Source: Cordilura impudica
Taxonomy: Eukaryota > Arthropoda > Insecta > Diptera > Scathophagidae
DNA: 64,000 nt
Reading direction: 5' to 3'
Assembly (NCBI GenBank): GCA_963682025.1
Contig: OY821518.1
Coordinates: 30,832,032 to 30,896,031, forward strand
In this document: piece after piece, positions 9,063 to 63,750 of the stretch
Position numbering within the stretch: the stretch's first letter is position 1
Layout: each line of letters starts with the position of its first letter
The notes under the pieces: model-generated
The model's database searches: none
The model's input: the letters and a program-made list of their open reading frames with translations, nothing else
Told to the model about the DNA's origin: nothing
Program-made: the position numbers and the translations under genes

Positions 9063-9790
9063 TCCAAATAGCCTTGATTTTCATCTTCTAGAAGTTGTTT
9101 AGCTTCTTCGTCTAATTCAATAGAGGTAGTTTTCCATTTTTTAAATTTTGGACATATATGGAACGAAATATACCATAAATTAGCACCTGATGAATTTTCG
9201 GCATTAAATTGCTTATATTGTTTCTGACTAGAGGATCCATCACATCCCCGTTTAGAAATTAAAGTAATGCTGCCATATCCAATTTTTTTTTAATGATCAG
9301 CATCAAGCGTTTTTAGCAATTGTTCTGCAGTATATTCAAGGAGATCTTGCAATTTTATTTCTGCTGAACTTGAAATGACACTAATCTCGATACTCGGGAA
9401 AAGTCCCACAATTCTTTTCATTGGTTCGCTTCCGCAATTCTTTATATTGATTTTTGGTCAACTTCAAATTCAGAAATAGGGTCAACGCTTCTTCTGGAGT
9501 AAATTTTTTAATCTTCAATTGGTGTAGGGATACTTTTCGAAATCCTCTTTTTGCGCCTTTGGCTCACTTCTACTATTTTTTCAATTATTTAAATTTTATT
9601 TTTTTTATTTTGTGTTGGTTGAATTTGGTGCAAAAATGAATCCTAAATCATTTTTTCTTTGATATTCTCCAGCTTGCGCCTTCGAGATCTTTCACTACAT
9701 CTGTCAATTGGATTTGCTGGTCGAGCCTTTTTCCCACTTTCGTTGGCAGTTGTAGATGAGCTCTCAAAAATGAATTCTTTAAAAACCAGT
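9063..9790 (-). pseudogene. RAG1/Transib-like transposase relic, copy 3
   Basis: Minus-strand translation shows the same order of blocks as the intact gene at 21.8-23.8 kb. KKFTPEEALTLFLNLKLTKN followed by QYKELRKR corresponds to LTPDEALSVLVEAKLSRHQY. After a frameshift, SSAEIKLQDLLEYTAEQLL corresponds to SAQVSLQGILDHTTERLL. After a stop, KRGCDGSSSQKQYKQF corresponds to the first catalytic block WGFDGSSGHSSYKQAF. The Asp of CDGSS is the RAG1 D600 equivalent. Similarity becomes weak after LWYISFHICP and the frame ends near 9063. The second and third catalytic residues, the zinc motifs and the terminal repeats are not visible. It is more diverged than the intact copy, so it probably derives from an older or different lineage. 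Confidence 0.65.
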
Positions 9791-20053: not shown

Positions 20054-20106
20054 TATATAGTCGATAAAAAAACAAGTCTTATATTTATATATATATATGG
20101 GGGATT

Positions 20107-20160
20107 TCATGTCAAGTGCACCAACTTTTGAAACCGATGTTTTCCGATCGGGATGAAATT
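20107..20160 (+). repeat. Left terminal inverted repeat of the DFAENY-type element
   Basis: Starts TCATGTCAAGTGCACC. It matches the complement of 26076-26129 with about one difference (GATGTTTT versus GATGTCTT). Confidence 0.85.
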
Positions 20161-20208
20161 AACCTTTCCGAAGGTATGTAACATAACTTCATAACATAAC
20201 AGAAGAGA

Positions 20209-21208
20209 ATGGTTATCTGTAACCTGAAAGAGTTATTTCCAACATTTCAATCTGAACACGAGGATGTTAGAATTGGCTTCACGAAATTAACCCAAATTTA
20301 CCATGAAAATGTTAAACTGATGTTGAAGGAAATCAACTTAAAGTATTTAACAGATGATTCGGCAGAAGATTTACACGATTACCGCGATTGCCTTAAATTG
20401 ACTATGTGTCCTAATGCAACAACTTCTTGCCACTTAGGTGAATGTACCAATTGCCCGAAAACCACATTCATCAAAGAAAATTTTATCAACTCTTTAGATC
20501 GAGAATATATAGAGGAGGTCAAATTTGATTCTTGGATTCAGACTGACAGATGCACATTGAAAACAATCATTTTAAATGTGAATGATTTTGTGGAAGAAAT
20601 GTGTACAGGATTGCTAAACTTGGTGACTTTTTAGTCAAAGAGCAATGGTCATTCTTCAAGGATTTGAAGATATATTTGAAGTCTGGTGAATTCGTTATTT
20701 CATATGATTTCGCAGAAAACTATACTACAGTATATTCACAGTAGTTATTTACTACATGAAAGATGAAAAACTGGAACACAAAAGTATGGCAATCATATCC
20801 GACGATTTAAAACATGATGCAGTTGCAGTTTATGAGTATCAGAAGAGAATACTAAAATTTCTAAAATCTAAATTTACAGTAAAGAAGGTAGACTACGTTT
20901 CGGACGGAGCTCGTCAACATTTTAAAAACAAAAGTAGCTTGGCAAATCTTATGGCCCATGAAAAAGATTTTGGAATGCCAGCTGAGTGGCATTTTCATCC
21001 TACTGCTCATGGTAAAGGAGCATGTGATGGTATTGGAGCAAACCTTAAAAGAATTGCAGTGAAGTATAGCCTCCAGTGCTCTCATCAAGATGCGACTGCT
21101 TTATTCCATTGGGCAAAGAGTTATTGTAAAGAAACTAAAATAGTTTTTAGTAGCAAAGAGGATCACCAGGAAACATTGAAAACACTGAAGAGCAGATTCG
21201 ATGCTGCG
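20209..21208 (+). pseudogene. DFAENY-type DDE-like transposase, copy 2, main part
   Basis: The first open frame (20209-20634) encodes a helical segment and a cysteine cluster (CPNATTSCHLGECTNC). It runs by a frameshift into VISYDFAENYTTVYSQ at about 20690-20745, holding the presumed first catalytic Asp. Roughly 50 bp that would encode 'QSAHW' (seen in copy 1) are deleted. The third part (20756-21208) has MAIISDDLKHDA, then VDYVSDGARQHFKNKSSLAN, AEWHFHPTAHGKGACDGIGA and a helical tail to RFDAA. There the RAG1-like element interrupts codon flow. The C-terminus resumes in frame at 25053. The DFAENY, SDG and HGKG blocks suggest an RNase-H-fold nuclease, which is inference. The N-terminal 200 or so residues seen in copy 1 are missing. 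It is not functional. Confidence 0.7.
21204..21208 (+). repeat. 5-bp target duplication, left copy (CTGCG)
   Basis: CTGCG directly precedes CACAGTG. The same five bases follow the right end at 25048-25052. GC-rich 5-bp duplications are typical of Transib and RAG-mediated transposition. Confidence 0.9.
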
Positions 21209-21248
21209 CACAGTGGGGCCAAATGCATGAAAAGTGGCGATTAATTCA
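21209..21248 (+). repeat. Left terminal inverted repeat with RSS-like heptamer
   Basis: The first seven bases CACAGTG equal the consensus heptamer of V(D)J recombination signals. Thirty-eight of 40 bases match the right repeat. No convincing nonamer (ACAAAAACC) follows at 12 or 23 bp. Confidence 0.9.
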
Positions 21249-21808
21249 TAGAAGTCATAATTTAAAAAAAAAAATATTTTTTATTAATGGATATTTATAA
21301 ATACATAAAAAACCAACATTTAAAAAAAAACAGAGTGAAAAAACACATTTTTTAACACTTTATGGGCCATTTTGTGTTCTGTAAAAAATCCTCTTTTTTC
21401 ACATTTTTTGCAGTAACTTTGGAACGGTGCGCTATAAATTATTCAATTAAATTGCAAATTAAAGCATACTAAATGTACTGTAAGAAAAATAAGTAATATT
21501 TTTAAAAATAATAAGGAATAAATATTTTATATGTATTTTTATTAGAAAATTTTTAAATTAAAATCATACCTTTTTTCTCGAAATTTTAAAATTTTGCTCA
21601 AAAATGAAACATTTGAGAATCTAATTGTTTTTTTATTGATAAATAACCATAAACACACTATTTAAAATAAATTTAATTAAATTCGGTTATACTATTTTTT
21701 TTTTTTTTTTGAAAACAACAATTTTTTATTATAATCATTATTACCTTCAATGTTAGTATTTACTTCACATTCAATTTCATAATCATAAATTAATTCGTTA
21801 CAATAATC

Positions 21809-21880
21809 TTAATCTTCATCTCCATCTTCATCTTCATCTTCATCTCCATCTTCATCTCCATCTTCATCTCCATCTTCATC
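21809..21880 (-). repeat. Coding GATGAAGATGGA repeat (acidic tail)
   Basis: An imperfect 12-bp/6-bp tandem repeat within the gene encodes the (DEDG)n tail. Repeat expansion may have extended the protein. Confidence 0.7.
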
Positions 21881-23806
21881 ATTGCTATTTTGATTGCTGG
21901 GAAGTACAAGCAACTCCAATGCAGATTTTGGCATTAGCTCTTTTTTCTTTTTAGAACTATTGCTCATGCTTGTTATAAACGGATCTGAACTTAAGAGAAA
22001 TCTATTAAAGATATCTTCCATTGTTTTTTCTCGACTGCATTTACGGGCAAAATTCTCCCTATAACTTTTAAAATCTTTATTTCTGGCTTCCTGAGACTCT
22101 TCGGTTAGCTGACCAATTGGCAATGGCGATAATGATATAATTTCAGGCCCATGAATAAAATATTTGTGAAGAGTAGGAGGCATATAGTACCATGGATATT
22201 TTTTCACAAATTGCCTGGCAGTGTTATTAGCGAAGTTTGTAAATTTTTCAATGTTGACCTCAATACCACTAGAAACTACAATTAATATTGTGTGCATATT
22301 TTTGATCAACTCTAAATCAATATTAGTAATTTCAGCAGATACTTCTGCATTCTTAAAAAAACGTCTTGCAGTATTCCCGTCATTAGAGTTACCAAAACCA
22401 GGTTTTGGTTGATCAATGATCAATCCCGTTCTCTTTTTAAATTCGCGTTGAATACGACTTTTAGTTTCAGCAATAATTTTTTTTTCTTCGTCACTTCTTG
22501 CCTGCCATTTTTGAATTGGAAGTTTATATGCCAAGTGAATAAGACATTCAAAAAATCTTATCCAGCCATGTAGGACAGACAAACCGAACTCCATGAAGTC
22601 TACGTTGGAATCTCTAGAAATCATTTGTTCAATATTGTTGAACTCCTTGCTGGTAGCGCCACATATGTAGCACTTTTGTGTGGACTTTGTGTCTGTAATC
22701 GCGTTACACACTTTACCGTCAATCATAACGAGAATTAGTTTGTGGTTCACTTTTATCTTTCTTTCTCCAACTGATATCACTGTATCGATAAGAGCATTTT
22801 TTTCTGTCTCCACTCTTTCTCTTTCTGTTTTAATACTGTTGACCGTTTCTTTCATAAATTCAATTTTTAATGGCCTGCAAAACCTAGTTGAAGACGGTCG
22901 AGGATTATGCCAAATGATTTTGTTTTTACAAACTAATTTTAATGGTACAATTGACGTAATAAATACAGAAGAATCAGATGCATTACTGTCATGAAAGGCT
23001 TGTTTGTAAGAACTATGCCCTGAACTTCCGTCAAAGCCCCACTTAGTGTATAAAGTAATTTTTTCGATTTCTTCGTTGTCTAACGAATTTAAATCTGCAT
23101 TTTTAACCGACAAAAGGCGTTCAGTGGTATGATCCAATATTCCTTGTAGGCTAACTTGCGCTGATGCTTCAGAAATTTTCATTTGTTCTCCCTTTGGGTA
23201 ACATTTTTTCTTAGCTCTTTGGACCAATTTATATGATGGAAATTTCTCAGGTGCAACCTTTCTAATAACATTATATTGGTGGCGACTTAGCTTCGCTTCT
23301 ACCAAAACGGACAGAGCTTCATCCGGAGTTAACTGCTGTGGTGGTACCTGTTCTATACTTTTTCGGTATTTTTGGGCTTTTGTTGGAGATGATATTATTT
23401 CCTTAACAATTTTCGACTCATCTATTTTTCCAACAGCTCTCAAGCTCATTTGTGTGGCGTAAGCCAAAACAGGCAAAGAAATTTGATCTCTTATGTCTTT
23501 ACATTTCTTAACTTTTGTTTTTTCTTTGCACTCTTCAAATGAGAGTTCATTGCGACCTCTTTTTTGTTGTGGTTCTGGTGGTGGACTGAATGAGATTGAG
23601 GCATCCAGCCAATTCTTATTATTTTTTAAAAAAATTTCATTCTTTCTATGACATTTTTGCCACCGAATCTCATAGCTAGAGCAAAAATTATGAAACCTTG
23701 TCATAAAATCTACCATATCCGAAGGGTCGACACGTTTTATTACTTCCCATCTCAAAAGTTTATCCTGAAGTGATTTAGGTTCTGCACTCCTCATAAAATT
23801 ATGCAA
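21809..23806 (-). CDS. RAG1-core-like transposase (Transib/RAG superfamily)
   Basis: An open frame of 665 codons for a DDE recombinase that would cut at the CACAGTG-type ends of its own element. Blocks follow the RAG1 core in order. WGFDGSS (D259) fits RAG1 D600. FCRPLKIEFMKE fits the CCKPLCLMLADE block. LVMIDGK (D363) fits D708. CYIC (C379, C382) fits zinc ligands C727/C730. LHGWIRFFE fits LHCDIGNAAEFY. NDGNTARRFF fits NGNFARKLM. LHKYFIHGPEII (H547, H552) fits H937/H942. IGQLTEESQEARNK (E573) fits E962. The N-terminal 250 residues contain LTPDEALSVLVEAKLSRHQY, also present in copy 3. The C-terminus is an acidic DEDG tail coded by a 12-bp repeat. The first codon by this count is TTG. The first ATG is codon 5 (23794), and open sequence extends upstream to about 23938 without an ATG, so an upstream exon or lost start is possible. 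RAG1 numbering is from memory. Confidence 0.88.
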   Translation of the reverse strand: MHNFMRSAEPKSLQDKLLRWEVIKRVDPSDMVDFMTRFHNFCSSYEIRWQKCHRKNEIFLKNNKNWLDASISFSPPPEPQQKRGRNELSFEECKEKTKVKKCKDIRDQISLPVLAYATQMSLRAVGKIDESKIVKEIISSPTKAQKYRKSIEQVPPQQLTPDEALSVLVEAKLSRHQYNVIRKVAPEKFPSYKLVQRAKKKCYPKGEQMKISEASAQVSLQGILDHTTERLLSVKNADLNSLDNEEIEKITLYTKWGFDGSSGHSSYKQAFHDSNASDSSVFITSIVPLKLVCKNKIIWHNPRPSSTRFCRPLKIEFMKETVNSIKTERERVETEKNALIDTVISVGERKIKVNHKLILVMIDGKVCNAITDTKSTQKCYICGATSKEFNNIEQMISRDSNVDFMEFGLSVLHGWIRFFECLIHLAYKLPIQKWQARSDEEKKIIAETKSRIQREFKKRTGLIIDQPKPGFGNSNDGNTARRFFKNAEVSAEITNIDLELIKNMHTILIVVSSGIEVNIEKFTNFANNTARQFVKKYPWYYMPPTLHKYFIHGPEIISLSPLPIGQLTEESQEARNKDFKSYRENFARKCSREKTMEDIFNRFLLSSDPFITSMSNSSKKKKELMPKSALELLVLPSNQNSNDEDGDEDGDEDGDEDEDEDGDED

Positions 23807-24163
23807 CTCATGACGAGGAATGAAAATTGTTTTGGGACATGTTCCTAAAATTAATAAGATTTCTATTCGTTTAAAATTTGCAAAAAGTAATTCCTTTAAC
23901 CCTGTACCGAATAATTTACACTTTCACAACACTTTAAATATGTAACATCACATCACAAAACATTGACAGCTAAAACAATAAATAAACGTGTCAGTACCGA
24001 ATCAATAATACCCTACGGATGGATAGAAATTCTTAAAAATGTATTATCATTATATTAGTAGATTGATATCACCAGCTTAAAACAAAATTAAAACTTTGCT
24101 CGTATGATGCATGTATATGACCAACAGTTATTATGTAGGACTCAAATAAATGACAATAATAAA

Positions 24164-24385
24164 TAGGGATGGGAGCGTGACCTCCTTCAATTTTTCAAAA
24201 TAGTGCACTTGTGCCATATACAATTTTCTAATAATTTAAAATTAACAAATGTTTAAGTAAAATTCATTGAAATATCATAAACACATGTAAAATAATTTAA
24301 TTAGTTTTATTCATAGTAAATAAACCCAACATACGCAATCACGTGAGCATGCGTGAATTAAAGTTACTCACGCCCCCATCTCTAA
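24164..24385. mobile_element. hAT-like MITE, 222 bp
   Basis: The ends TAGGGATGGGAGCGTGA and, inverted, TAGAGATGGGGGCGTGAG, form a 17-bp inverted repeat. The flanks ATAATAAA and ATTAACAA agree at 6 of 8 positions, consistent with an old 8-bp duplication. A related GGGATGGGAGCG sequence occurs inverted at 25716-25728. It lies upstream of the RAG1-like gene and could affect its promoter. Confidence 0.6.
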
Positions 24386-25007
24386 TTAACAACACATTTT
24401 TTAGCTACAATAACAACTACTATAACGAAAATAATGACAAAACAAAGTAAAAACAACTTGATGTTTTGTTTTTTTTTTTTTTCATGTTTGTGGATTTTTA
24501 GCATCTTGAGTTATTTCACAAAAACAAGCATAACTCAAAAATCGCAAAAAATCGCAAAAAAATATTTTGGGGTTTATTAGTTGAGATCTGATATTATAAC
24601 ACTGTATAGACGATTTTACGCAAGCTCACGAACAAAGTTGTTGAAACTCCATATATAAATCAAAAATAGCCCATTTTTGGGCTAATTTTATTTTATTAAC
24701 ATTTAATATTTTTAAAACATTTATTTAAACAAAAAAACATGTACTATATAGTAAACTACCTGAAGTTGACGGTTCCATTATAAAAATTTAACTTTTAGAA
24801 GTATTAATAGAAAAAATTATCAATTGAAATATCAAAATTTTCACTTTTTTTCAATATGCACAAAAAAAATAACAATTATTCAACTTTAAGTGCTCACTTC
24901 AACTAAAGCAAACAACTTAAAAGTATAATTTTTGCAATTAGTGATGCAGAATTTTATCCACTTTCACCCGGTACCAAACACGATCATGAATTTTAAAGTT
25001 CATATTT
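24386..25007. other. 5' noncoding part of the RAG1-like element
   Basis: AT-rich with a poly-T at 24467-24482. No gene. If the transposase has an upstream exon or promoter, it must lie here or in 23807-24163. Confidence 0.5.
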
Positions 25008-25047
25008 TGAATTAATCGCCACTTTTCATTCATTTGGCCCCAATGTG
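25008..25047 (-). repeat. Right terminal inverted repeat of the RAG1-like element
   Basis: In reverse complement it starts CACATTGGGGCCAAATG. It differs from the left repeat at positions 5 (T for G in the heptamer) and 18. Confidence 0.9.
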
Positions 25048-25052
25048 CTGCG
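25048..25052 (+). repeat. 5-bp target duplication, right copy (CTGCG)
   Basis: Identical to 21204-21208 and directly adjacent to the right terminal repeat. Confidence 0.9.
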
Positions 25053-25221
25053 GTAACAATCGATGGCACCGCTCAATACCATGCTTTTATACCGCTTGTC
25101 GATGGAAGACTCAAGTTGAAAAAGTTTTCTGCCTCTATTCAATGCGATTTCTCTGCAAAGACAACAAATAAACCAGCAGTGAAATCAACAGCTGAATCTA
25201 GTAAGCCAAGAAAGGATTGAC
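25053..25221 (+). pseudogene. DFAENY-type transposase, copy 2, C-terminal part
   Basis: Continues the frame interrupted at 21208: VTIDGTAQYHAFIPLVDGRL then KLKKFSASIQCDF, ending KPRKD and a stop. GTxQYHAFIP followed by KKFS is the usual C-terminal signature of this protein type as I remember it. The exact in-frame join across the RAG1-like insert shows that the gene pre-dates the insertion. Confidence 0.75.
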
Positions 25222-26075
25222 AAAAAAACGCAGTAAATAAAGGCGACAAAAAAGCTGGATGAAAGACTGGGTATTTAAAAATTTACAAGACTTAAATACT
25301 TCATCAGCTACAATAAATTAAGTATAAAAACAGTTATGATATAAATGGATCTAATGCAATTAAGATTAAATTTTAATAAATTATTTATCTTTTTATTTTT
25401 AATATTATTATTATTATACATTAATTTAATTATTATAAAAAATAAATAAAAAATAATAATTTTTCAACATTTCTATAGAAAAAAAGCGATTTTTTTTCCT
25501 GAGGTTAACATATTCTGGGTATTACAGTATCGAGGGTATAAAATTTTAGTTAGGTATGTTATATACCTTCGGAAAGCTTAGTTTGTCTAGTTTCTCATTA
25601 TAAGTTTTATTTGTAAGGTTTTAGACACAAATTGGAAAAAATTCAAAATAGTGCATTTGTGAAAAATTGAAAAACCGTTGTCTTGAGTTACAAAACATTT
25701 ATTTTGATATATATCCCGCTCCCATCCCACTAAGCGACCAAAAAGCTCTTAAAGGAAATATCCTAAGCTTTCTTATGAAAAAAAAAATGCCCTTTTTGAA
25801 AAAAAGGCAAAAAATGCTTTAATTTAGAAAAAAAAAGTCTACAATTTTTTTTTTTTTTTTTAAGTATTTTTTTCCGAAATATTGAAGAAATAGCTATTTA
25901 AACTATTTGGGAGAAAATTTTCTAAGAACAATAGGTAATAAGTTACATGGATGAGAAAAAACACCTGTTTGGCCAAAATGTCAAATTTTGATCCCCTCTA
26001 ACTCAGAGAGATTTTGACCGATCTTGTTGAAAAATTGTGTCTAAACTACTATCCAATAGGACTAACCTTGGTGCA
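25222..26075. other. 3' noncoding part of the DFAENY-type element
   Basis: AT-rich, no gene. It contains the inverted subterminal block at 25550-25575 and a GGGATGGGAGCG-like hAT end scrap at 25716-25728. A 20-base string TTCAAAATAGTGCA(C/T)TTGTG is also found at 24194-24213. Confidence 0.5.
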
Positions 26076-26126
26076 AATTTCATCCCGATCGGAAGACATC
26101 GGTTTCAAAAGTTGGTGCACTTGACA

Positions 26127-26129
<3 letters not shown>
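26076..26129 (-). repeat. Right terminal inverted repeat of the DFAENY-type element
   Basis: Reverse complement begins TCATGTCAAGTGCACC. It runs directly into an (AT)n tract. Confidence 0.85.

Positions 26130-26174
<45 letters not shown>
26130..26174. repeat. (AT)n microsatellite
   Basis: About 22 AT units. The left side of the transposon also has an AT run, so the element probably inserted into this tract. Confidence 0.9.
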
Positions 26175-29107: not shown

Positions 29108-29863
29108 TACACCCTATACCACTATGTGGTTGGGTATAATGACTTTGTGCTTTGACCTACACCCATCTTTAATTATACCGATCGAATCAGAATCACTATC
29201 TGATTCGATTTAACGATGTCCGTCCGTCTGTGTGTCCATGTAAAGCTTGTAATCAAACTGCAGGTCTCAAATATGAATATATTTTAATGAAATTTGGTAT
29301 TTAATCTTTTATCGGCCATGGGATGAACGCTATTGAAATTGGTAAGAATCAGTCCATGTTCAGACCTAGCCCCCATACAAATGACCCCTATGAAATCAAC
29401 ATATATTGCCATAAGATCTAAATTATCATACAAATCTTAGTCAAATTAGGTTTGTATGTATATATTACATCCATTAATCAGTAGTCCATAATTGATCACT
29501 ATTGGACAACTCTTAGTCATAGGCCCCATATAGACCCCGATCTTCACTTAAATCTATCAAAAAACAAAAATATTGCACTGATTCTTCTCAAATTTTGTTT
29601 GTGTATGTTTTTGCAAAATACAAGAGACTTTACCAAACATGGTCAGGAACGGTCCATTTTTGGGCCTAGTCCCCGTATAGATATATCATCCGATATGAAC
29701 TTTTTCATATCTGCAGCCGAAAAAATTAATAAAAATCCCACTCAAATTTGGTTTATGCTTATTTTCTATATACAGTCAGTTGGGTGTAAGAGATATGGTC
29801 TCTTATCGCATGGTATAGGGTATCGCATAGTCGGTCTAGACCGACTATAATTTTCTTACTTGT
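29108..29863 (+). mobile_element. Family A, near full length, inside heptamer array
   Basis: ACACCCTATACCACTATG to AGTCGGTCTAGACCGACT and CTTACTTGTT. It lies 100 bp from the previous copy in the same orientation. Confidence 0.75.
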
Positions 29864-30590
29864 TCATTTTTCATTTTTTATTTTTCAATTTTCATTTTTT
29901 ATTTTTAATTTTTTATTTTAAATTTTTTATATATAATTTTTTATTTTTCATTTTTTTTTTTTTCTTTTTTCATTTTTTATTTTTCATTATTCATTTTTAA
30001 TTTTAGTTTTTCATTTTTCATTTCTTAGTTTTCATGTTTCATGTTTCATTTTTTAGTTTTAATTTTTTATTATTAATTTTTTATTTTTCATTTTTACTTT
30101 TTAATTTTTTTTATATTTAATTTTTCATTTTTCATTTTTTATTTTTCATTTTTCATTTTTCATTTTTTATTTTTCATTTTTCATTTTTCATTTTTAATTT
30201 TTTATTTTTATTCTTAATTTTTTATTTTTCATTTTTAATTTTTTTTTAATTTTTCGTTTTTCATTTTTTATTTTTCATTTTTCAGTTTTCGTTTTTCATT
30301 TTTCATTTTTTATTTTTAATTTTTTATTTTTCATTTTTTATTTTTCATATTTTATTTTTTATTTTTCATTTTTTATTTTTTCTTTTTCACTTTCATTATT
30401 AATTTTTAATTTCTCTTTTTTCATTTTTCATTTTTTATTTTTCATGTTTCGTTTTTTATTTTTCGTTTTATTTTTCATTTTTTATTTTTTATTTTTCATT
30501 TTTAATTTTTCATTTTTTTTCTCATTTTTCAACTTTCATTTTTTATTTTTCATTTTTTTTTATTTTTTATTTTTCACTTTTAATTTTCAA
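29864..30590 (+). repeat. TTTTTCA/TTTTTAA/TTTTTTA heptamer array
   Basis: About 730 bp with a 7-bp period. Five T are constant; position six varies (C, A, T, G) and A is last. No gene. An open frame at 30444 is only repeat translation. Confidence 0.8.
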
Positions 30591-38817: not shown

Positions 38818-39482
38818 CGGGTGATTTTTTTGAGGTTAGGATTTTCATGCATTAGTATTTGACAGATCACGTGGGATTTCAGACATGGTGTCAAAGAGAA
38901 AGATGCTCAGTATGCTTTGACATTTCATCATGAATAGACTTACTAACGAGCAACGCTTGCAAATCATTGAATTTTATTACCAAAATCAGTGTTCGGTTCG
39001 AAATGTGTTTCGCGCTTTACGTCCGATTTATGGTCTACATAATCGACCAAGTGAGCAAACAATTAATGCGATTGTGACCAAGTTTCGCACTCAGTTTACT
39101 TTATTGGACATTAAACCAACCACACGAATGCGTACAGTGCGTACAGAAGAGAATATTGCGTCTGTTTCTGAGAGTGTTACTGAAGACCGTGAAATGTCGA
39201 TTCGTCGCCGTTCGCAGCAATTGGGTTTGTGTTATTCGACCACATGGAAGATTTTACGCAAAGATCTTGGTGTAAAACCGTATAAAATACAGCTCGTGCA
39301 AGAACTGAAGCCGAACGATCTGCCACAACGTCTATTTTCAGTGAATGGGCCCTAGAAAAGTTGGCAGAAAATCCGCTTTTTTATCGACAAATTTTGTTCA
39401 GCGATGAGGCTCATTTCTGGTTGAATGGCTTCGTAAATAAGCAAAATTGCCGTATTTGGAGTGAAGAGCAACCAGAAGATCT
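38818..39482 (+). pseudogene. Tc1/mariner-type (IS630) transposase, 3'-truncated
   Basis: The left end GGGTGATTTTTTTGAGGTTA matches the typical TIR of this insect family. The ATG at 38930 opens MNRLTNEQRLQIIEFYYQNQ, SVRNVFRALRPIYG, ATTxxxRTEENIA-type linker sequence and RRSQQLGLCYSTTWKILRKD, a paired-type DNA-binding domain. A 1-bp frame change near 39340 and a stop (39353) precede MAENPLFYRQILFSDEAHFW, where SDEAHF holds the first catalytic Asp. At 39481 the frame runs into family C sequence at a GATCTA junction. The second and third catalytic residues are therefore lost, and the last 20 residues of the frame are not transposase. Confidence 0.85.
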
Positions 39483-46657: not shown

Positions 46658-46967
46658 TTCATTTTTAATTTTTCATTTTTCGTTTTTCATTTTGCATTTT
46701 TAATTTTTCATTTTTCAGTTTTCGTTTTTCATATTTTATTTTTCATTTTTCATTTTTAATTTTTCATTTTTTGTTTTTCATTTTGCATTTTTAGTTTTTA
46801 ATTTTTCATTTTTAATTTTTCATTTTTAATTTTTAATTTTGCATTTTTAATTTTTCAGTTTTCAATTTTTATATTTTATTTTTCATTTTTAATTTTTTAT
46901 TTTTAATGTTGCATTTTTTGTTTTTAATTTTTCGTTTTTCATTTTTCGTTTTTAATTTTTAATTTTA

Positions 46968-47370
46968 TATTTTTAATTTTTAATTTTTAATTTTTAATTT
47001 TTAATTTTTAATTTTTAATTTTTAATTTTTAATTTTTAATTTTTAATTTTTAATTTTTAATTTTTAATTTTTAATTTTTAATTTTTAATTTTTAATTTTT
47101 AATTTTTAATTTTTAATTTTTAATTTTTAATTTTTAATTTTTAATTTTTAATTTTTAATTTTTAATTTTTAATTTTTAATTTTTAATTTTTAATTTTTAA
47201 TTTTTAATTTTTAATTTTTAATTTTTAATTTTTAATTTTTAATTTTTAATTTTTAATTTTTAATTTTTAATTTTTAAGTTTTAATTTTTAATTTTTAATT
47301 TTTAATTTTTAATTTTTAATTTTTAATTTTTAATTTTTAATTTTTAATTTTTAATTTTTAATTTTATATT
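46968..47370 (+). repeat. Near-perfect (AATTTTT)n array
   Basis: About 57 uninterrupted 7-bp units with a single visible variant (AAGTTTT near 47276). It is embedded in the more variable TTTTTCA array 46658-47590. The homogeneity suggests recent expansion. Confidence 0.9.
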
Positions 47371-47812
47371 TTTAATTTTTCAGCTTTAAGTTTTTATTTT
47401 TCACTTATCATTTAAATTTTTAATTTTTCATTTTTTAATTTTCCTTTTTTATTTTTAATTTTTCATTTTTAATTTTTAATTTTTCATTTTTCGTTTTTAA
47501 TTTTTAATTTTTTATTTTACATTTTTTATTTTTATTCTTCATTATATTATTAATTGAAATTGTCATTTTTAATTTTTAATTTTTCATTTTTCAAAACGTT
47601 TTTGTAACGCTATTCGCTCCCTCATTTTATTTCCCAACACTTCCAAATGAAATCATACCTTCATTTTATTTTCAAACACTTCCTAATCTGTTCACCAATA
47701 TAATTGTATCTCACACCGTTTTTGTCTTACTCTGTTTTTGTGATTGTATTGTGAAATAGAGTTTTACCTTCCGGAGCGTATAGATGTTTACACATCAAAA
47801 AATAGATTGCAT

Positions 47813-49461: not shown

Positions 49462-50528
49462 TCTATAATATTATTAGGCTAGGCGATTTTTGTGACCGAT
49501 GTTTTGTTCTACCGTTTTATCTCGATTTTACCCAAACGTATATTATTTGAAAGGTATTTCTTTTTAGCCATTTTGTAGATTTACGGATTTTTAAATTTTT
49601 TCCTTTATTTTGAGTAAATTGCATTTAAAGCTGCTACTAACACAAACGTAAACATCTATACGCGCAGGGGGGTAAATTTCTATTTCACAATACAATCACA
49701 AAATCAGCATAACATGTGAGCTCACATGTTACTCTGTGAGACGTAAGACAAAATCGGTGTGACATATGATTGTATTGGTGAAAAAATTATGATAAGTAAT
49801 AACCTGTTTGAAAATTAAAAATGAATTGTGAAAAATAAAAAATGGAAAATAAAAATAAAAAATTAAAAATAAAAAATGAAAAATTAAAAATAAAAAATTA
49901 AAAATAAAAAATAAAAAATGAAAAACGAAAAATGAAAAATAAAAAATGATAACTTAAAAAATGAAAAATTAGAAATGAAAAATAACAACTGAAAAATTAA
50001 AAGTAAAACATGAAAAATAAAAAATAGAAAATGAAAAATGAAACATCAAAAATAAAAAATTGAAAATGGAAAATGAAAAACGAAAAATTAAAAATGAAAA
50101 ATGAAAAATAAAAAATTAAAAATCAAAAATTAAATGTAAAAAATGAATGAAAAAAGAAAAATAAGAAATGAAAAATGAAAAATAAAAAATGAAAACTAAA
50201 AAATGAAAAATTAAAAATAAAAAACCAAAAATTAAAAATTAAATTAAAATAAATATTTTTGTATTAGCAGAGCCCCTGCAGTTGATTGCTATAAGTGACA
50301 CATAGATGACGCTTTATGTTTGATTTTAAAAAAGTGCCATAAAAAATCTTTAATTACTAGATGTTTACACGTCTCCCCTGTGATCGGACTCACATGCTTT
50401 TTTTTGTTTTTTGTGTTGATTTGTCAATTGGCTATAATTGATTGGCATACTTTTAGGGTCTTTAACTAATGAAAAAAATAAAATTTTCTAGAATTTGCAC
50501 TCGAATTTCGATGGCTGGAATCTGCTAG
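49462..50528 (+). mobile_element. Non-autonomous Helitron family E, split by family F
   Basis: The first part 49462-49647 (TCTATAATATTATTAGGCTAGG) and the last part 50398-50528 (hairpin, TCTGCTAG) are one E copy. Family F lies between them and replaces about 60 bp. Confidence 0.7.
49648..50397 (-). mobile_element. Family F element, copy 4 (about 750 bp)
   Basis: GTAAACATCTATACGCGCAGG to CTCCCCTGTGATCGGACTCA CATG, with the reverse-complement heptamer array (AAAAATG/AAAAATA/AAAAATT) at 49815-50250. Because it lies in a Helitron of known sequence, its limits are well defined. Inverted TAGATGTTTAC motifs lie inside each end. Confidence 0.65.
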
Positions 50529-52862: not shown

Positions 52863-53355
52863 TATTTAAAAAAAAACACAGTTGCATAACAGCACACATA
52901 TTTGATGCTGAAGAAATAAGGAAAGAAAAACCAACTTTCTAATACCGTAAGATTACTCAAAAGATTTCTATACTGTTGATCATAACATATTGTGCTACAA
53001 ACTTCAAAACATGATCATGGTCTCAAACACAGCTACACGTCTTATATACACATACTATCGAAATCTAATTTACTGCCCGTTAGAAGAGGTGTCCCTCAAG
53101 GGTCGATCGTGGGACAGCTCCTCTTTTCACTTTACGCAAATAATCTCCCAAATCAACTACATCGCTGTAAATTACGAATGTATGCAGATGATATTCAACT
53201 TTTCATAAGTTGCAATGCATCTGATATTCAACAATGTGTAGAAACTTTGAATCAGGAATTACAAGAAGTATATTTTTGGGCTGCAACAAATCCTAAAAAA
53301 TCAAAATGTCTGGTTATTCAAAAACGACCTACTGCAGAGGATACAATAACTAGCA

Positions 53356-53731
53356 TCTATAATATTAATAGACTAGACGATTTCTTGTGACTGATGTTTT
53401 ATTCTGCCGTTTTATCCCGATATTGACCAAACGTATATTATTTGAAAGGTAGTTCTTTTTAGCTGTTCACCAGATTTAAAGATTTTTAAATTTTTTTTCT
53501 TTATTTTGAGTAAATTGCATTTAAAGTTGCTAGTAACACATACATAAAATTATACAATGCTATGTGTGTGTTTATTAAATTTGTTAATGTGTATTATATA
53601 AAAATGAGTTTATTTTTTGTGTTGATTTGTGAATTGGCTATAATTGATTAGCATACCTCTAGGGTCTTCAATTAACTAAAAAAAAAAATCCTAAAATTTG
53701 CGCTCGAATTTCGAGGGCAGGAATCTGATAG
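53356..53731 (+). mobile_element. Non-autonomous Helitron family E in LINE
   Basis: TCTATAATATTAATAGAC to TCGAATTTCGAGG and CTGATAG (the terminal CTAG is mutated to ATAG). LINE coding resumes on the other side. Confidence 0.7.
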
Positions 53732-61570: not shown

Positions 61571-62230
61571 AGCTAAAGGTAGCAGTATTTTTCTATGAAA
61601 AAAACGAGCTGAAGCAAGATAAACGACTCACATATAACTCATAAATATTTTTACGTGTATCCATATATAGACTTTGATCCATCTGTTCCTAAACATGTTT
61701 TTGAGGTTGACGTCTTATGCTAGTAATGCACTGTGGTTTTTTTCCGTTTTTTTTTTGGCATAAAGTCAATTTTTTTTTTTGTTAAGTATATTAAAATTTT
61801 GTTGATTTTTAATTTTTAAACACCCCAGTTAGAAAAAAAAATATTTAACTTAAACATGTGGAGCAATACTGTTCTGTTTGCGCACTGTTAAAGTCAGCTG
61901 ATTATGTACAACACGTTTTGTGTGAAATTGGCGTGAAAAATTTTGCAACTTTGATTGATTGTTCTGGCGAAAGTTTACACAAAAGTGAAAAGGATAAATA
62001 TGGAAAACGATTGTCCATGTATGTAAAACTATAGTTTACCAATGTTTGTATCGTTGTTATGTGTTTTTGTCCTATTGTACCGTGTTTTGTATATGCGTAT
62101 TTTTAGAATGAGTTTAACAAGTGTAGTTGTGTTGCGTGGATCAGTACTTTTGCATGGCAAAGCGTTGCAAAAAGTTGTAGGTGAGAAGTTATTAACCAAA
62201 GTGTGCAAATTAATAAGAAACTGATCCTTT
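61571..62230. other. Unassigned DNA upstream of RAG1-like relic 2
   Basis: No terminal repeat was identified. 62092-62225 can be read as RIFRMSLTSVVVLRGSVLLH GKALQKVVGEKLL. This might be N-terminal coding sequence of the relic, but there is no independent support. Confidence 0.35.
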
Positions 62231-63750
62231 TTGTCCGAATCCACACGTTTTCGAAAAAATCAAATTTTTCTAGTACAATATGTGTTTAGTCGTTCTGAGC
62301 TGGTTGACATTTGGAGCAACAACAATCGCTCAAGAGACGCCATACAACAGCACATATTGAAAAGTATCCCACAAAAACATTTAAATAACGAGAACACTAA
62401 GTTAATAAATGAAAAAGTGAAAGCCTTCATCAATTATATAAAAAACACTTGCCGAAGTGTAATTCAACTCTGGAAATATTTAAGGAAATGGCTTGACAAA
62501 AGCATATTCATAGAAATCACTGGTCATTATGCGTTAGCAAATAAAGTGGGTCGCCCAAAATGTGATAACAACTTATCTCCCTTACTCATACATGCTGCCA
62601 CAAATGAAAAAGTTTTAGCTGTTGTTTTGAAAGCAGCTGGGAGTTGTAAGAGTATTAATGAAATAAAAAAGAAGCTTTTTGCGGATGAGCCCAAACAAAT
62701 GTCAGCTGACAGTGCGCTTGCATTTTTATTGGAAAATGAATTCACAAAAAGTCAGTATATAAATATACAATGAAATGCAAAAATTCACGGATGTGACAGA
62801 TACCCGGCATATCCGGCCGTACTTAATTCTAAATTAAAACTAAGGCCAAAAGGAATTGAATATTTTGAAAATAAGGCACATGTATCATTACAAAATCTTT
62901 TGGATCATACGTCTTCCCGCATTCTCGAAATGCAACACGAGGTCCTAGAAACACTTCCCAACGAGGTACATTGCAAGTTATTATTCAGCTATGGATATGA
63001 TGGTTCATCCGGCCAGAGTTTGTACAAACAGCGTTTCCAGTTCCACGATAGTCCTTCAATTGGCAGTTCACTGTTCGTTACTACAATTGTCCCATTGAAA
63101 TTAAAAAATGAGACGCAACAAATTATTTGGCTCCGCAATCTGTTAGATTTTGCCGGCCATTGAAGATTGAATTCTTTAAGGAAACTACCGCCCTCATATT
63201 AGCTGAAAATGAAAATTTGGATGCACAGATTCGCAACATGCAAATATATTTGTATAAATTTAAAGAAAAATATATATGTATATGTCGAATATACTGGACA
63301 CATGACATTAATAGATGGGAAAGTCTTAAACATATTGTCAGGAAGCAACTCATGTCAGTCTTGCCCTATCTGTGGAGCGAAGCCAAAACAATTGTTCGAT
63401 ACTAAAGATATAAACTCGAATGTTTTCATGGCTAAGGCGCACGCTCTTCAATATGAAATCAGTCCTTTACACGCTTGGATTCGCTTTTTCGAGTTTATTT
63501 TAAAAATCTCATATAGAATTGAGCTTAAGAAGTGGCATGTCAAGGATTGCAATAAGCTTAAACTAAAAGCATGAAAAAGACTGTTACAATTAAAAATTAT
63601 GAAAGACATGGGCCTAAATGTGGACAAGCTTCTTTCAAATGGCAGTGAAAACTCCAATGATGGCAACACAGCGAGAAGATCATTTTCCAATGCAGCTTTA
63701 CTGTCATCAGTTCTTGATTTTGATTATGATATTCTACAAATTTTTTGAAC
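62231..63750 (+). pseudogene. RAG1/Transib-like transposase relic, copy 2
   Basis: The first open part (to 62773) includes YLRKWLDKSIF, KVGRPKC and MSADSALAFLLENEFTKSQY, matching LTPDEALSVLVEAKLSRHQY of the intact gene. After stops and shifts come LQNLLDHTSSRIL and YGYDGSSGQSLYKQRF (first catalytic Asp, RAG1 D600 equivalent). Then come SSLFVTTIVPLKL, VRFCRPLKIEFFKET and MTLIDGKV (second Asp, D708 equivalent). Next are CPICGAKPKQLFD (zinc cysteines), LHAWIRFFEFILKISYRIEL and NSNDGNTARRSFSNA. Translation stops after DYDILQIF at about 63748. The part with the zinc histidines and the third acidic residue is absent, so it is 3'-truncated and dead. It is more diverged from the intact copy than a simple duplicate would be. 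Confidence 0.8.

Follow-up and report, generated by a model that had tools for sequence, protein, structure and literature searches.

A 64,000-nucleotide stretch of the Cordilura impudica genome, referred to here as the window, contains a 3839-bp element (positions 21209–25047) that we identify, with a probability of about 0.97, as a complete Transib cut-and-paste transposon that carries its own transposase gene and has recently multiplied. The element combines a transposase homologous to that of Transib, a D-D-E triad at Transib spacing, inverted ends beginning with a CAC heptamer-like sequence and a GC-rich 5-bp target-site duplication. It is a young example of a kind of transposon that was already known and that is related to the enzyme which rearranges antibody genes.

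Element boundaries and insertion site

The left terminal inverted repeat (21209–21248, plus strand) starts with CACAGTG and lies 3′ of the transposase gene, i.e. downstream, while the right repeat (25008–25047) starts with CACATTG on the minus strand and lies 5′ (upstream) of the gene. These 40-bp repeats agree at 38 positions, with mismatches at positions 5 and 18, and the sequence CTGCG is present directly outside both the left end (21204–21208) and the right end (25048–25052). The end pattern occurred twice in the 64-kb window and was absent from 100 shuffles. Thus, the initial annotation, which described 40-bp inverted repeats with 38 matches, CTGCG on either side and one long frame inside, was right to the base, and the element is complete as it had claimed. 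The bases of the window copy also fit an alternative boundary with a 3-bp TGC duplication and 41-bp ends. This boundary was ruled out by other copies: of 39 complete insertions, 37 are flanked right outside CACAGTG and CACATTG by perfect 5-bp repeats, and we conclude that the duplication is 5 bp.

The insertion lies within an outer repeat (20104–26132) that is not part of the Transib element and consists of an interrupted frame between 57-bp inverted ends (20104–20160 and 26076–26132). When the flanks were joined with a single CTGCG, the reading frame continued through the junction. Forty scored matches (of 484 candidates) crossed the joined site with 94–97% identity, and the empty site was uninterrupted in all five paralogues read at the junction, four of which contained CTGCG while the fifth had one substitution within it. 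These data show that the Transib element inserted into the outer repeat and that other copies of this repeat kept the empty site. The outer repeat, for which at least 40 genomic copies match around the insertion site, is possibly a DNA transposon without family assignment; a paralogue (L084) contains a 395-aa frame with no Pfam match above the cut-off, the best being DUF3880 at 15.8 of 25.2 bits.

Inspection of the remainder of the window revealed a second, older Transib (62606–63739, plus strand) with an upstream frame from 62225; it is 33% identical to the first and contains several stops. A possible left end of this element is the CACTGTGG at 61729, for which no partner was found within the window. 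A third Transib-like transposase is present as two pieces (9161–9542, minus strand) that are 37% and 38% identical. We also observed a helix-turn-helix (DUF4817) frame and a reverse transcriptase fragment (38921–39355 and 52986–53390), as well as long arrays of a 7-bp A+T-rich repeat (29863–30587, 46661–47591 and 49811–50243).

The transposase and its assignment to Transib

The transposase frame (23923–21809, minus strand) spans 704 codons from stop to stop, and translation from the first ATG gives a 661-aa protein of the Transib family (23794–21809). Its C-terminal end is an acidic tail of Asp, Glu and Gly residues that is coded by a 12-bp tandem repeat (21812–21880, minus strand) and differs in length among copies. 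Residues of the CxxC and HxxxxH type, which bind zinc in RAG1, are common to the window protein and the chain of PDB entry 6pqn, the Helicoverpa zea Transib transposase. Zinc binding by such residues in RAG1 is in line with a published account (PMC7204232). Alignment with HzTransib, whose catalytic residues are reported as D126, D225 and E436 (PMC6941560), identified the corresponding minus-strand codons as those of Asp255 (23030–23032), Asp359 (22718–22720) and Glu569 (22088–22090). Counted on the HzTransib residues, the D-D-E spacing is 99 and 211, the same as in HzTransib. Ahead of the acidic tail, the window copy departs from the family consensus by five substitutions and a deletion of two residues, and its own protein may therefore be impaired. 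Structure prediction from the single transposase sequence gave a mean pLDDT of 34.8 and was set aside.

Our assignment to Transib rather than RAG1L is based on a contrast in score: comparison with 6pqn gave 390.8 bits (E 1e-115), with 41% identity over 481 matched residues, whereas comparison with the RAG1L chain 6b40 gave 10.7 bits (E 1). The 6pqn match and the conserved D-D-E residues and spacing support the initial proposal that the element belongs to the Transib/RAG superfamily. The accompanying label 'RAG1-type' was overstated, as the Pfam RAG1 model scored 23.8 bits, slightly short of its cut-off of 25, and no second frame of RAG2 size was found. We nevertheless considered the possibility that the element is of the RAG1-like (RAGL or ProtoRAG) type, or that the frame is a domesticated RAG1-like gene. 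The Pfam RAG1 model does match 78 C-terminal residues of the transposase (E 1.5e-5), and in the whole genome it gave eight matches above the cut-off (68 of 413 candidates scored); however, these eight reached only 26.6–27.7 bits and were short and C-terminal, covering model positions 530–650 of 653. The HzTransib score also far exceeds that of RAG1L, the other frames of at least 80 aa inside the element are just 85, 86 and 107 aa, and a family with 195 ends is incompatible with a single domesticated gene. We consider a RAG1-like identity to have hardly any chance of being correct and retain the assignment to Transib.

A RAG2-like gene was not found beside the transposase by inspection of the other open frames inside the element, none of which exceeded 107 aa, a procedure that would miss a gene in short exons. 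Scans of viral_contigs and prokaryote genome_contigs by a few short peptide patterns, in collections that may not include the window's own genome, confirmed no relatives of the transposase. A literature search combining the start of the end sequence with 'transib' gave, among the matches listed, no paper that contains 'transib'.

Genomic copies, target sites and age of the family

The genome searched comprised 1.486 Gb in 855 contigs. Transposase matches were scored for 63 of 41,280 first-look candidates and were 92–100% identical to the window protein; 28 of the 63, counted from the match table, span residues 2–701 without a stop. A search with the end pattern, which placed no constraint on positions 5 and 18 and tolerated as many as 3 mismatches, identified 195 matches (97 forward and 98 reverse), and the reversed control gave none. 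The family thus has about 97 pairs' worth of ends. Among the 100 ends listed, 82 formed 41 pairs and 18 stood alone, and the number of insertions may therefore be higher. Six of the 41 pairs span 1.8–3.2 kb and presumably represent copies with internal deletions; four others extend over more than 4.5 kb.

We examined a sample of 21 copies consisting of the window copy and the 20 next-best of the 63 by protein score, a choice biased toward intact frames. Both ends were present in all 21. One end was CACAGTG in 20 copies and TACAGTG, with loss of CAC, in L010; the other was CACATTG in all 21, with a 1-bp deletion further in for L028. Perfect 5-bp duplications were found in 19 copies, including L028, which the script scored as unlike owing to the deletion in its end and which is counted here as perfect; L012 and L023 had one and two mismatches, respectively. 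All 18 further pairs picked from the zero-mismatch end list had perfect duplications, bringing the total to 37 of 39 complete insertions. The initial annotation had proposed a search for other copies with 5-bp duplications, and both the 195 ends and the duplications, which are 71% G+C, support its reading of GC-rich 5-bp duplications. Exceptions are the imperfect repeats of L012 and L023, among 39 insertions, and the altered end of L010, among 21 copies.

Target sites were tallied over the 39 insertions, using the left copy for L012 and L023. Position 1 was C in 33 sites, position 2 a purine in 38, position 4 a pyrimidine in 36 and position 5 G in 34. The full CRNYG sequence was present in 24 of the 39, as compared to 0.54% of 5-mers in the window, showing that the family prefers C-R-N-Y-G targets. 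For the function of the window copy's protein and its cleavage chemistry, we infer that the 661-aa DDE transposase would bind the two 40-bp ends and, by analogy with HzTransib and RAG, would nick 5′ of CAC and form hairpins on the flanking DNA. The element would then be joined to C-R-N-Y-G sites at positions staggered by 5 bp, which would generate the 5-bp duplications.

The 21 copies differ from their consensus by 0.18–0.56% (mean 0.34%), and 224 of their 244 variable sites are singletons. This low divergence, together with the predominance of singletons, suggests a recent burst from a near-uniform source; the numbers of changes per copy were slightly overdispersed relative to a Poisson distribution (dispersion 1.7, p 0.027). 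The fly mutation rate is 2.8e-9 to 5e-9 per generation, which would place the burst roughly 0.7–1.6 million generations ago. Frames were open in 17 of the 21 copies, with that of L011 ending slightly early, and broken in L009, L010, L021 and L028. L024 has a stop listed when each base change is taken alone, and its frame is open when read whole. The 77 singleton changes in the frame comprise 23 silent, 50 replacement and 4 stop changes (expected 17.9, 55.6 and 3.5) and look neutral. Singleton density inside the frame is about half of that outside, which we attribute to the choice of copies by protein score. The claim that the element was recently active holds on an evolutionary scale, given the low mean divergence and the number of open frames.

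These data also bear on the possibility that the family no longer moves, its burst having ended and its surviving open frames being simply young. The four broken frames, the neutral appearance of the singleton changes and the 0.35% difference between even the closest pair of copies, which we count against movement today, all point in this direction. However, 17 open frames of 21, among copies selected by protein score, and the 28 of 63 scored copies without a stop speak against it, and any transposon would be expected to change neutrally once inserted. Under neutrality, the window copy's unbroken frame would place its divergence below about 0.8–2.8%. On balance, cessation of movement seems rather unlikely, and a recently multiplied family with its own transposase remains our reading.

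End forms and comparison with known systems

The 100 zero-mismatch ends listed, of 195, fell into two forms, 49 with CACAGTG and C at position 18 and 51 with CACATTG and A at position 18, with no mixtures. Each of the 41 pairs read from this list consisted of one CACAGTG and one CACATTG end. We rejected decay as the source of the two mismatches because both differences recur in other copies, indicating that they are fixed features of the family. That the two-base difference is functional, with the two ends handled differently, would be compatible with the finding of only two forms even though the search left positions 5 and 18 free. Unlike ends are also known, as a few Transib elements in Drosophila melanogaster and Anopheles gambiae are described as having asymmetric ends with 12/23-like spacing (PMC8355894). 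However, expansion from a single source would fix whatever difference between the ends had arisen by chance, and the two ends of the window copy agree at all 38 other positions; we therefore regard a functional difference as quite improbable. Slightly more doubtful still is a specific form of this idea, with downstream CACAGTG versus upstream CACATTG as a working label that would lead the transposase to join two unlike ends, in a rudimentary precursor of the 12/23 pairing rule. If it were true, this precursor would reside in just two bases, one in the heptamer and one further in.

The left heptamer had been equated with the V(D)J recombination signal. This is correct insofar as CACAGTG is identical to the signal heptamer; the other end reads CACATTG, and the nonamer and 12/23 spacing are lacking. 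A nonamer at 12/23 spacing was not found in either end with spacers of 11–13 or 22–24; the best score was 5 of 9 with a spacer of 11 at both ends, and 8.9% of element positions score 5 of 9 or higher. The window element carries CACAGTGGG, and RAG1/2 in a cell assay were reported to use CACAGTG followed by GG poorly (PMC9723617). Most Transib families are described as having symmetric ends that are heptamer-like but not nonamer-like (PMC8289069), and some as matching the consensus exactly in both heptamer and nonamer (PMC6941560). As neither consensus nonamers nor 12/23-like ends are present here, the window element is, judged from its ends, less signal-like than some known Transib elements. 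A Transib heptamer identical to the recombination signal is likewise not new, as it is already in print (PMC6941560). The accepted origin of V(D)J recombination from Transib/RAG transposons is unchanged by the window element. A Transib family this young, in which many copies retain an open frame, would be useful for testing end and target choice by RAG-like transposases, as the difference between its ends, its preference for C-R-N-Y-G targets and its shorter derivatives occur together in one genome.

Among known relatives, Hztransib is the element whose transposase gave the 41% identity and identical catalytic spacing; it is reported to measure 3518 bp and to have long inverted ends, a 5-bp GCTCG duplication and a deduced protein of 489 aa (PMC1852546). 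It constitutes a separate family; in the window protein, about 150 residues precede the start of the match, and the acidic tail is a feature of the window protein. Transib1 of Drosophila simulans and D. melanogaster is also a Transib that spread recently to many copies, but it is 3,030 bp long and invaded D. melanogaster in 2013–2016 (PMC12230796), as opposed to a burst here that would be roughly a million generations old at the fly mutation rate used above. ProtoRAG and other RAGL transposons have CAC ends, 5-bp duplications and DDE ancestry in common with the window element (PMC7204232, PMC8289069), but carry both RAG1L and RAG2L, whereas the window element has one long frame. Finally, vertebrate RAG1 and its recombination signals share the CACAGTG heptamer with one end of the window element, and differ in that the latter has no nonamer, no 12/23 spacing and a protein that matches RAG1 only weakly.
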